Assembly: GCA_027491195.1 (NCBI GenBank)
Contig: JAIXWQ010000011.1
Coordinates: 248,001-312,000 of the forward strand
Length of the DNA: 64,000 bases
Origin: Cytophagaceae bacterium
Lineage (GTDB): Bacteria > Bacteroidota > Bacteroidia > Cytophagales > Spirosomataceae
Reading direction: 5' to 3'
This document shows positions 274 to 61,112 of the stretch, piece by piece. The position numbers and the translations under genes were made by a program. Under the pieces are notes generated by a model. That model made no database searches. It had not been told where the DNA came from and saw nothing but the letters and a program-made list of their open reading frames with translations. Position 1 is the stretch's first letter. Every line of letters starts with the position of its first letter.

Positions 274-285
274 GGAAATCTTGCT

Positions 286-406
286 AAATGGTAAGTGGTA
301 AATGGTAAATGAAAAATGAATTTTTATTGAAACTTGACCCATGTACCATATACCATTCACCATTTACCATCCAATTCACCATTTATCATTCACCATTTAC
401 CATTTA
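286..406. repeat. Inverted heptanucleotide arrays, CCATTTA family (locus A)
   Basis: Left arm 286-318 is built of GTAARTG/GTAAATG units and right arm 339-406 of CCATTTA, CCATTCA, CCATATA and TCATTCA units, nearly all in a strict 7-bp register with one 4-base and one 8-base interruption near 367-378. The arms are reverse complements, so a transcript could fold into a long imperfect stem with a loop of about 20 bases. It lies between two minus-strand genes (the nucleotidyltransferase and purL), next to a perfect terminator hairpin. Same family as the array at 47121-47219. This accounts for most of the 242-443 gap. Confidence 0.8.
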
Positions 407-13038: not shown

Positions 13039-13115
13039 GGACTAGCGACTAGTGACTAGCGACTGACGGCTGTCCACCGCCCACTGACGACTGTCCACTG
13101 CCTACTTCCACTTAT
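13039..13115. repeat. Heptanucleotide array, CGACTAG/CCACTGT family (locus C)
   Basis: Eleven consecutive 7-bp units in perfect register, from GGACTAG, CGACTAG, TGACTAG, CGACTGA through CGGCTGT, CCACCGC, CCACTGA, CGACTGT, CCACTGC to CTACTTC, CACTTAT. Just before it the 11-mer CCTCCGGACTA occurs twice (13019 and 13034). The array fills the convergent gap between the ATP-grasp and NTF2-like genes and runs straight into the terminator at 13121. Confidence 0.75.
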
Positions 13116-15052: not shown

Positions 15053-15059
15053 TTCCGTC

Positions 15060-15129
15060 TTTATTCTTTATGCTTTGTGCTCTATGCTTTATATCTCTAC
15101 TCTATACTCTCTAATCTCTACTCTATAAA
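15060..15129. repeat. Heptanucleotide array, TTTATTC/TTTATGC then CTCTACT units (locus D)
   Basis: Ten 7-bp units in unbroken register: TTTATTC, TTTATGC, TTTGTGC, TCTATGC, TTTATAT, CTCTACT, CTATACT, CTCTAAT, CTCTACT, CTATAAA. It is the right-arm type of loci E, F and G but without a left arm. It ends two bases before the lysA stop codon in the convergent AraC/lysA gap. Confidence 0.8.
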
Positions 15130-18944: not shown

Positions 18945-18960
18945 ATTTTTCATTATTTTA

Positions 18961-19107
18961 AAGAATAAAGCACAAAGAATAAAGCATAGAGTTGGAATCG
19001 CCTTCAGCGATTATTTCAGAAACATATTTATAAAAAAAGGGATCGAATTTCGACCCCTTTTTTTTTTTCAAATTTATTCTTTGTGCTTTATGCTCTATGC
19101 TTTAAAT
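18961..19107. repeat. Composite inverted heptamer element (locus E)
   Basis: Left array 18961-18995 (AAGAATA, AAGCACA, AAGAATA, AAGCATA, GAGTTGG), a small hairpin ATCGC-N5-GCGAT, a terminator (19032-19068), then right array 19073-19107 (TTTATTC, TTTGTGC, TTTATGC, TCTATGC, TTTAAAT). The right array is the reverse complement of the left. It fills the convergent thyA/SurA-like gap and has the same order of parts as loci F and G. Confidence 0.82.
19032..19068. terminator. Bidirectional rho-independent terminator
   Basis: A7GGG, an inner TCGA...TCGA pairing, and CCCC followed by a long T run; lies between convergent thyA and the SurA-like gene. Confidence 0.82.
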
Positions 19108-31170: not shown

Positions 31171-31178
31171 AAACATTA

Positions 31179-31414
31179 AAGCATAAAGAATAAAGCACAA
31201 AGAATAAATGAGAGTAAAGATTATAGAGTAGAGAGAACAGATAACAAGAATAAAGAATAAAGCACAAAGAATAAAGTTCGAATCCCCTTTGGGGATGAAT
31301 TCAGCAATGAATTACTTCACTGTACTCATCAAAAAAGCGGCGTAAGCCGTTTTTTTGATTCCTAATTTATTCTTTATTCTTTATGCTCTATGCTTTATCT
31401 ATAATCACTACTCT
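31179..31414. repeat. Composite inverted heptamer element (locus F), the longest copy
   Basis: Left array 31179-31276: fourteen 7-bp units in unbroken register, AAGCATA, AAGAATA, AAGCACA, AAGAATA, then diverged TAGAGA-type units, then AATAAAG, AATAAAG, CACAAAG, AATAAAG. Next come a hairpin ATCCCC-TTT-GGGGAT, a spacer of about 40 bp, a terminator (31328-31360), and right array 31366-31414 (TTTATTC, TTTATTC, TTTATGC, TCTATGC, TTTATCT, ATAATCA, CTACTCT), reverse complementary to the left. It fills the convergent pepT/guaA gap. Confidence 0.85.
31328..31360. terminator. Bidirectional rho-independent terminator
   Basis: A6-GCGGC-GTAA-GCCG-T7 stem-loop between convergent pepT and guaA, inside the heptamer element. 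Confidence 0.82.
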
Positions 31415-31455
31415 AAAAATATTGCGAAGCACGATTTTAGAAATGAAATAGAAAT

Positions 31456-42694: not shown

Positions 42695-43393
42695 ATGAAT
42701 ATGAAACTAGACATTCTCGTGATGGCCGCACATCCAGACGATGCTGAATTAAGCTGCGCTGGAACTATTTTAAAGCACATTGCCGCTGGCAAAAAAGTGG
42801 GAATCGTAGATTTCACCCGTGGAGAATTAGGCACACGAGGCACTCCAGAAATTCGCTTACAAGAATCAGCTGACGCCACTAAAATCCTCGGTTTACATGC
42901 ACGTGAAAACCTTGGCATCCGCGATGGCTTTTTTAGAAACGACGAGGAAACGCAATTGAAATTAATCGAAGTCATTCGCAAATACCAACCAGATATCGTT
43001 TTAGCTAATGCCCTAGAAGATCGCCATCCAGATCATGGAAAAGGTGCTCAATTAGCCATAGATGCTTGTTTTTTATCAGGATTACGCCAAATCAAAACCG
43101 GCGATCTTCCTGCCTGGAGACCCGCACAAGTCTATCATTACATCCAAGATCGCTACTTAGAACCTGATTTTGTGGTGGATATTTCTTCGCAATGGGACCA
43201 AAAAGAAGCAGCCATTCGCGCATTCAAGAGTCAATTCTTTGATCCGAATTCTGCCGAGCCGGCATCTTATATTTCTAGCCCAGACTTCTTGAACTTTATC
43301 CAAGCGCGCGCGATGGAGATGGGCCACAAGATTGGGGTGAAATACGGAGAAGGGTTCCAGAGTCAGAAGACGTTGGAGAAAAAGTTATTGTAG
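42695..43393 (+). CDS. bshB1: Bacillithiol biosynthesis deacetylase BshB1
   Basis: A 232-aa LmbE/PIG-L fold zinc hydrolase. MAAHPDDAELSCAGT carries the His and Asp metal ligands and EDRHPDHGKGAQLA the third; FTRGELGTRGTPEIR is typical of the BshB1 group. It removes acetyl from GlcNAc-malate in bacillithiol synthesis. bshA and bshC are not in this window. A second ATG two codons in (42701) is an equally good start. Its stop codon abuts a composite heptamer element. Confidence 0.93.
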   Translation: MNMKLDILVMAAHPDDAELSCAGTILKHIAAGKKVGIVDFTRGELGTRGTPEIRLQESADATKILGLHARENLGIRDGFFRNDEETQLKLIEVIRKYQPDIVLANALEDRHPDHGKGAQLAIDACFLSGLRQIKTGDLPAWRPAQVYHYIQDRYLEPDFVVDISSQWDQKEAAIRAFKSQFFDPNSAEPASYISSPDFLNFIQARAMEMGHKIGVKYGEGFQSQKTLEKKLL

Positions 43394-43571
43394 AGAATAA
43401 AGCACAAAGAATAAAGAATAAAGAATAAAGAATAAAGAATAAAGAATAGAGTTTGAATCGCCTTTGGCGATAAAATTATGAAATGTTTTTGTCTATGTAA
43501 TCATCAAAAAGGGCTCGAAATTCGAGCCCTTTTTGATTCCAACTTTATTCTTTGTGCTTTATGCTTTATTA
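43392..43571. repeat. Composite inverted heptamer element (locus G) with six identical units
   Basis: Left array 43392-43454: AGAGAAT, AAAGCAC, six exact copies of AAAGAAT (43406-43447), AGAGTTT. Then hairpin ATCGCC-TTT-GGCGAT (43457-43471), spacer, terminator (43503-43537), and right array 43544-43571 (TTTATTC, TTTGTGC, TTTATGC, TTTATTA), reverse complementary to the left. The array begins inside the bshB1 stop codon and fills the convergent gap to pdxH. Confidence 0.85.
43503..43537. terminator. Perfectly symmetric bidirectional terminator
   Basis: A 17-base arm starting ATCAAAAAGGGCTCG is mirrored exactly by its complement ending in CCCTTTTTGAT around one central base; suits both bshB1 and pdxH. 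Confidence 0.85.
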
Positions 43572-47114: not shown

Positions 47115-47120
47115 AAAATG

Positions 47121-47219
47121 GTGAATGGTAAATGATGAATGGTGAATGCTAAATTTTATTTTTCATTTACCATTTACCACTTACCATTTACCATTATTTG
47201 AGTTACCATTTACCATTTT
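47121..47219. repeat. Inverted heptanucleotide arrays, CCATTTA family (locus B)
   Basis: Left arm 47121-47148 (GTGAATG, GTAAATG, ATGAATG, GTGAATG) and right arm 47164-47219 (CCATTTA, CCACTTA, CCATTTA, CCATTAT, then after an 8-bp break CCATTTA and CCATTTT). Arms are reverse complementary with a loop of about 15 bases. It fills the gap between convergent polA and aguB and has no separate GC-rich terminator. Same family as locus A, 46 kb away. Confidence 0.8.
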
Positions 47220-51677: not shown

Positions 51678-51750
51678 GCCTCCTTAGCTCAGCTGGTAGA
51701 GCAACTGATTTGTAATCAGTAGGTCATTGGTTCGATCCCGATAGGAGGCT
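51678..51750 (+). tRNA. tRNA-Thr (anticodon TGT)
   Basis: A 73-base cloverleaf: acceptor GCCTCCT/AGGAGGC, D arm with AGCTCAGCTGGTAGAGC, anticodon stem ACTGA/TCAGT with loop TTTGTAA (anticodon TGT), T arm ATTGG-TTCGATC-CCGAT, discriminator T. The CCA end is not encoded. It reads ACA and probably other ACN codons. Confidence 0.96.
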
Positions 51751-61054: not shown

Positions 61055-61076
61055 TAAATATTAGCCAAAAAAAATG

Positions 61077-61104
61077 AGGGCCGCTCACAAAAATGAGCGG
61101 CCCT
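61077..61104. terminator. Bidirectional rho-independent terminator
   Basis: AGGGCCGCTCA and TGAGCGGCCCT pair perfectly around a CAAAAA loop, with A-rich and T-rich flanks, between the convergent TIM-barrel and GH43 genes. Confidence 0.88.
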
Positions 61105-61112
61105 TTATTTTA

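Follow-up and report, generated by a model that had tools for sequence, protein, structure and literature searches.

A dispersed intergenic element of inward-facing heptamer arrays and small hairpins at gene 3′ ends in a Cytophagaceae bacterium and its relatives

The intergenic DNA of a Cytophagaceae bacterium (Spirosomataceae) contains a genuine, dispersed element, which is a fresh variant of the intergenic heptamer repeats. A typical copy consists of two inward-facing modules, each of which comprises a C-poor run of heptamers, a motif like AAAGTTGGA and a hairpin. The window, the whole stretch of 64,000 nucleotides that was analysed (GenBank assembly GCA_027491195.1, contig JAIXWQ010000011.1, positions 248,001 to 312,000), holds the three copies E, F and G. 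The explanation to which we give the most weight, with a probability that still falls a little short of even, is that of a dispersed repeat of gene 3′ ends, mostly convergent ones, which would terminate transcripts and would spread by slippage and by replacement of whole elements. A reading in which the element has no function is nearly as likely.

Copies E (18960–19103), F (31178–31414) and G (43392–43567) are each located between convergent genes, and those that flank F resemble, as we take it, a peptidase T gene and guaA. Each copy combines two arrays, one of AAAGNAN heptamers and one on the opposite strand, with a junction motif and its small hairpin, a spacer and an A-tract/T-tract hairpin (Table 1). 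The initial annotation had recognized these shared parts, all of which are present in each of the three copies. It had also given them one fixed order, which does not hold; among the 15 copies of the home genome flagged for a terminator, 8 carry the small hairpin on the left only, 5 carry it on the right only and 2 carry one on each side, so that the mirror order occurs as well. The left array of F has a lag-7 identity of 0.69, a value reached by none of 5000 mononucleotide shuffles at any lag from 4 to 13. A strict 7-bp register over 98 bp had been described for this array, but its outer AAAG words are in phase 0, its AGAG words in phase 5 and its inner AAAG words in phase 4. The z-scores of the predicted RNA folds against shuffles were −6.7 for F (31235–31400), −9.4 for G and −6.4 for E. 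The A-tract/T-tract hairpin, earlier called a rho-independent terminator, is found in E, F and G, whereas a terminator scan gave none in any of the three; we think that the scan probably counted the A:T tract as stem.

Table 1. Features of copies E, F and G and of other array sites, in window coordinates.
Feature	Positions	Strand	Basis
E left arm, four words	18960–18987	+	array parse
E core module	18988–19029	+	model R1, 32.4 bits; copy not in the model's alignment
E A-tract/T-tract hairpin	19032–19068	.	fold; terminator scan negative
E right arm, four words	19076–19103	-	array parse
F outer array, four AAAGNAN words, phase 0	31178–31205	+	array parse
F AGAG-type words AGATTAT, AGAGTAG, AGAGAAC, phase 5	31218–31238	+	array parse
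F inner array, three AAAGNAN words adjoining the core, phase 4	31252–31272	+	array parse
F core module: AAAGTTCGA, hairpin ATCCCC-TTT-GGGGAT and spacer	31273–31314	+	model R1, 46.6 bits (score not independent, copy in the model's building alignment A1)
F A-tract/T-tract hairpin, terminator-like on both strands (ATC...GAT)	31328–31359	.	fold; terminator scan negative
F right arm, four minus-strand words, inward-facing	31369–31396	-	array parse
F single AGAGTAG word, outside the right arm	31408–31414	-	array parse
G left arm, seven words (AAAGCAC, then AAAGAAT six times), preceded by AGAGAAT	43399–43447	+	array parse
G core module	43448–43489	+	model R1, 52.1 bits (score not independent, copy in A1)
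G A-tract/T-tract hairpin	43503–43537	.	fold; terminator scan negative
G right arm, three words	43547–43567	-	array parse
A, inverted AATGGTR-word arrays between two minus-strand genes; AGAG words here in G012	282–406	.	
B, GACTAG / CAGTGGA-type heptamers at a convergent junction	13040–13109	.	
C, a single right-hand module between convergent genes; its terminator-like hairpin adjoins AAAG words, and AGAG words lie outside	15058–15127	-	
H, inverted AATGGTR-word arrays without core	47117–47195	.	junction comparison

The element is not confined to these three places. A search of the home genome with a word pattern of 18 bases gave 54 matches, of which some overlap, and none with the reversed control, so that further copies do exist. 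In the home-genome stretches retrieved around these matches, parsing gave 34 paired elements, E, F and G among them, in agreement with the earlier proposal of a composite, repeated element at convergent gene ends. The distance between the arms of these 34 ranges from 38 to 159 bases, with a median of 91, and a script found a small or terminator-like hairpin between the arms in 29. Seen by eye, the usual anatomy in most of them is a series of words, a motif like AAAGTTGGA and then a hairpin with ATC...GAT as its closing bases. This hairpin has a six-pair stem and a three-base loop on one strand; on the other, the same motif is often followed by an A-tract/T-tract hairpin. Terminator-like hairpins were flagged by the script in 15 copies, one of which was spurious by eye, and three more had been missed, which brings the number to about 17 of the 34. 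In a home-genome set chosen for the AAAG pattern, the number of words is exactly four in 39 of 68 AAAG arms, and the longest G run in the dictionary words of the 68 arms is 1. The innermost word is AAAGAAT in 51 of the 76 AAAG/AGAG arrays listed for the home genome.

A covariance model of the small hairpin, R1, was derived from an alignment (A1) of 25 home-genome hairpins chosen for a perfect six-pair stem. Twenty-three cells of A1 are changed on both sides, and the share that is paired is circular given this choice. The search of related genomes by covariance model, which had been suggested at the outset, was carried out with this core hairpin model and gave 38 matches at E up to 1 within 45 loci of other genomes. 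Matches outside the model supplied 33 distinct rows; their alignment follows the model, and they may have orthologues among the home copies. In these rows 96.6% of the cells pair, compared to 71.9% in the best slid versions, and 25 cells are double-changed, compared to a shuffle mean of 5.0 and to 8 in the best slid versions. The pairing of the small hairpin is kept despite base changes, as had been claimed, and selection and hairpin-templated repair would keep it alike. Of the earlier phrase "selection on structure", the kept pairing of the small hairpin stands, but repair templated by the hairpin is also possible and the pairing of arm with arm is untuned.

The core is present in 10 of 38 genomes of the genus, exactly the 10 that have the AAAG pattern, with at least 10–50 copies in each. 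In the home genome the core is present at E ≤ 0.01 in at least 50 copies, and AAAG..GG precedes the stem. In the 38 loci of a wider set (other genus members, family, order and class) R1 gave only two matches, at E values of 0.45 and 0.5. A known RNA family was considered and rejected, the only match to Rfam families above the gathering score in the window being a tRNA at 51678–51750.

Intergenic DNA was scanned for tandem arrays with periods of 4 to 13, using simple gene calls of our own, which miss some genes. The period is 7 in 15 of the 17 arrays from arbitrary stretches of relatives and the window (5 of 7 and 10 of 10), and in 94 of 97 once stretches chosen for arrays are added, with own-genome sets selected by the AAAG pattern. 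Over five samples it is 7 in 37 of 42 arrays, and shuffled DNA gave none. By sample, the counts are 10 of 10 in the window, 18 of 18 in the genus (a sample that includes six stretches picked for the AAAG pattern), 4 of 5 in the family, 5 of 8 in the order and class and 0 of 1 in the phylum. A seven-base step that would provide stop codons in three frames was rejected, CAAAGTT and CAAAGAG words having no stop codon (by eye). In one member of the same class (L127:6953–7161), inverted arrays of a nine-base word (AGTTTGGTC) surround a spacer between tandem genes, which is the same layout with a period of nine.

The arrays favour convergent gene ends; a dependence on such ends had been put forward for checking. 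In arbitrary stretches and the window, period-7 arrays are found at 7 of the 35 convergent junctions, at 4 of the 62 tandem ones and at none of the 57 divergent ones (convergent vs. divergent, Fisher P = 7.7e-4), which leaves 28 of these 35 convergent junctions without an array. In stretches chosen for arrays the corresponding counts are 24 of 54, 25 of 122 and 4 of 61. In the order and class sample, arrays were found at none of the 25 convergent, at 2 of the 133 tandem and at 1 of the 37 divergent junctions, with no convergent preference, and the phylum sample has no period-7 array in 183 junctions. Abundance and convergent preference are therefore shown for the genus only. Where a junction carries arrays on both strands, the group is inward-facing in 16 of 16 cases over all sets. 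The home-genome stretches chosen for arrays hold 78 AAAG/AGAG arrays, 8 of them in predicted ORFs and 2 at edges; the other 68 lie between convergent (48), tandem (18) or divergent (2) genes. Fifty-seven home-genome arrays are on the sense strand of the preceding gene, and these start at a median of 21 bases past it.

The heptamers belong to several vocabularies. Among the 38 genus genomes AAAG words are found in 10, CAAAG words in 15 (five with a single match), AGAG words in 13 (reversed control 1 match, in G012, otherwise 0), AGGTA words in 19 (reversed control 5 matches, in G013, otherwise 0) and GAC words in 8; the reversed controls of the AAAG, CAAAG and GAC words gave no match. AGAG arrays contain up to 10 words, and GAC and AGGTA arrays far more. 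Beside the AAAG words of F in the home genome some AGAG words are present. At the guaA junction, inverted heptamer arrays built from different words are present in several other genus members and arrays are lacking in some (by eye), and inverted heptamer arrays around a short hairpin were also seen by eye in other genera of the family, e.g., at L097 and L101.

Turnover at fixed sites was followed at seven window junctions in up to five relatives each. The neighbouring proteins are 85–100% identical, except for one neighbour at sites B and C (65–67%). At site G, AAAG words are present in the home genome and G029, CAAAG words in G001 and G017, and AGAG words with AATGG inside in G012. Site H has a bare AATGG pair in three species, CAAAG arrays in G017 and AAAG arrays in G029. 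A hand recount of 37 species pairs at orthologous junctions gave 23 with no common majority vocabulary, 7 that agree and 7 that are partial, in which one arm's vocabulary is common or an arm went undetected. The majority vocabulary of one arm is also that of the other in 17 of 19 copies, with 4.5 expected and 0 of 20000 shuffles reaching that number; since the species compared are related, shuffle counts are not true probabilities, and the vocabulary classes are patterns of our own definition that missed some arms seen by eye (site A, in the home genome and G001).

The agreement between arms does not extend to the individual words. Word identity between arms is 0.309 within elements vs. 0.373 (sd 0.043) between elements, and in the best register 0.618 vs. 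0.637. This comparison gives no support to palindrome templating or to selection for an arm-to-arm hairpin. The second array had been described as the reverse complement of the first, which is not specifically so, vocabulary alone being common to the two. Because both arms change together without copying from arm to arm, the turnover points to replacement of entire elements. In nine stacked arms leading into a core, the words closest to it are of the AAAG or CAAAG type, with AGAG or CAGTGG words outside them (by eye), and in three coreless stacks AAAG words come before AGAG words. This arrangement suggests that the stacked vocabularies may be layers.

Other repeats lie in or near the elements. 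Direct copies of a short repeat, AGTCCGAAGGAAATG, occur in or beside elements of the home genome at C6:314946–315167 (L019–L024) and C6:423716–423795 (L026), and G012 has a similar stretch at its site G (L187). Next to guaA in relatives (L064, L065, L066), the element is adjoined by a longer repeat around ATTGCGCAGCACATTTTCGAAC, and a stretch resembling this repeat is near 31415–31440 in the window. What appears by eye to be the end of an IS-type transposase gene is located beside the guaA-junction arrays of G011 (L089).

If the element acts in termination, RNA polymerase leaving either gene would traverse a C-poor array and then a hairpin. The hairpin with A and T tracts would end transcription from both sides, and the remaining hairpins may cap or protect 3′ ends. 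Array length would change by replication slippage in steps of seven bases. Whole elements, both arms jointly, would be replaced through recombination with other copies or by insertion, and such replacement would spread vocabularies through the genome. The words themselves would need no reader. Arrays are unnecessary for ending a gene, because a plain, arrayless hairpin is present at the convergent junction at 61055–61112, likewise in both relatives examined, and because several relatives lack arrays at the guaA junction.

It is for this reason, together with the negative terminator scan, that the absence of function is rated nearly equal to the termination reading, with a probability that is considerable and yet well under one half. 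The arrays would then be products of seven-base slippage and recombination, harmless where they are found and excluded by promoters outside convergent ends. Such an origin is consistent with their absence from 28 of the 35 convergent junctions, with the lack of the AAAG vocabulary in 28 of 38 genus genomes, with arms that are untuned to each other, with rapid turnover, and with the much longer arrays of other vocabularies, as slippage would give. According to Rehm et al., who also restate a hypothesis that slippage of the polymerase favours seven, similar arrays were found without a regulatory role (PMC4692102). Plain slippage would not be expected to produce a peak at four words in AAAG arms (39 of 68), nor mixed groups that face inward in 16 of 16 cases, nor arms that agree in vocabulary. 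Copying of whole elements could nevertheless yield all three features without function.

The remaining rivals are weaker. A protein or RNA with a seven-base step might read the words by binding the sense-strand array in the transcript or in DNA, the vocabularies drifting with their reader. A single vocabulary common to dozens of loci, the fixed strand, clade-specific vocabularies and the preference of AAAGAAT for the innermost position (51 of 76 listed arrays) argue for such a reader; inherited copying would account for the position preference too, and several vocabularies coexist per genome and occupy one site in different species, so that we consider a reader quite unlikely. The strong predicted folds (z from −6.4 to −9.4) could mean that the two arms are selected to pair as one long RNA hairpin or a DNA cruciform, but they follow from the common vocabulary alone, and in the one genome compared the arms are no more alike within than between elements (0.309 vs. 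0.373), which makes this very unlikely. The short hairpins, which are dispersed in inverted pairs at the 3′ ends of genes with at least 10–50 core copies in each of 10 genomes, also recall a REP/REPIN-like element mobilised by a REP-associated tyrosine transposase. A PF01797 search had 0 matches in the home genome, a 14-contig draft of 98% completeness, and matched 5 of 14 control genomes, so that this origin is highly improbable; with the Y1 transposase absent from the home genome in this search, no agent of replacement was found for the favoured reading of termination and whole-element replacement.

The initial annotation had known of no named element of this form in Bacteroidota, and this agrees with the literature searched, most subscription journals being outside its scope, in which no paper on a composite element of this kind was found. 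Bidirectional intrinsic terminators, which lie between convergent genes, have a GC stem with an A tract before it and a T tract after it. About half of the 34 copies are like them, and the hairpin at 61055–61112 is a plain, armless one. REP/BIME and REPIN sequences are short extragenic hairpins in inverted pairs and many copies. The element is like these in its dispersed hairpin with a conserved flank and unlike them in its heptamer arms and in the lack of a Y1 transposase in the home genome. The heptanucleotide repeats of the cyanobacterium Calothrix are presumably those named STRR. Like the arrays here, they are tandem seven-base words (mentioned in PMC4692102). Intergenic direct repeats of TAACTGA, also present in five Bacteroidetes, are found mostly just upstream of start codons in a Beggiatoa relative, according to MacGregor (2015; PMC4679880). 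They too are seven-base and intergenic, but tandem TAACTGA is missing here, with 0 exact tandem pairs in the window and 231 loci, and these repeats were rejected as an identity for the element.

The closest likeness is to the G-rich heptamers of Xanthomonas (GGGAATC) and Nostoc (GGGGAYT), as described by Rehm et al. (2015; PMC4692102). These are mostly intergenic and near an ORF, either downstream of it on the coding strand or, on the opposite strand, upstream, with 70 pairs in convergent orientation in Xcc and 75 in Xac. They are under-represented between divergent ORFs and mostly have four units, which were linked to G-quadruplexes as the minimum for a quadruplex. When two species were compared, heptamers were mostly at the same junctions, with variable length and sequence. 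Similarly, the arrays described here consist of degenerate seven-base words with constant and variable positions, have period seven, form inward inverted pairs and are scarce between divergent genes. The AAAG arrays differ in lying mostly between convergent genes, as compared to 16% in Xanthomonas. Also unlike the heptamers in that account, the words are others, there is a conserved hairpin core between the arms, and orthologous sites have differing vocabularies. A four-unit preference is seen in the AAAG arms; AGAG, GAC and AGGTA arrays are longer, so that four units are no general rule. Quadruplexes are not the reason for it here, because the four-word AAAG arms have no G run above 1.

These likenesses raise the thought that there may be a cross-phylum class of seven-base 3′-end tags, whose words would be arbitrary "dialects" swapped as whole paired elements at fixed sites, without change to the period, the strand, the place or the inward pairing. 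This is unlikely, and we lowered its standing because other vocabularies do not keep four words. If true, it would mean that quadruplexes are not the general cause of such arrays, Xanthomonas included, and that the common constraint is a mechanical step of seven bases, whether it lies in replication, in transcription or in a reader. A natural experiment on the seven-base step and on the spread of arrays is offered by close relatives whose vocabularies differ at the same junction. The results of most note are that vocabularies at fixed sites differ in a coordinated way and that one vocabulary prefers four words without quadruplexes. With a layout similar to that of Xanthomonas and Nostoc and the same four-unit preference in a vocabulary that has no quadruplex capacity, the quadruplex explanation need not be general.
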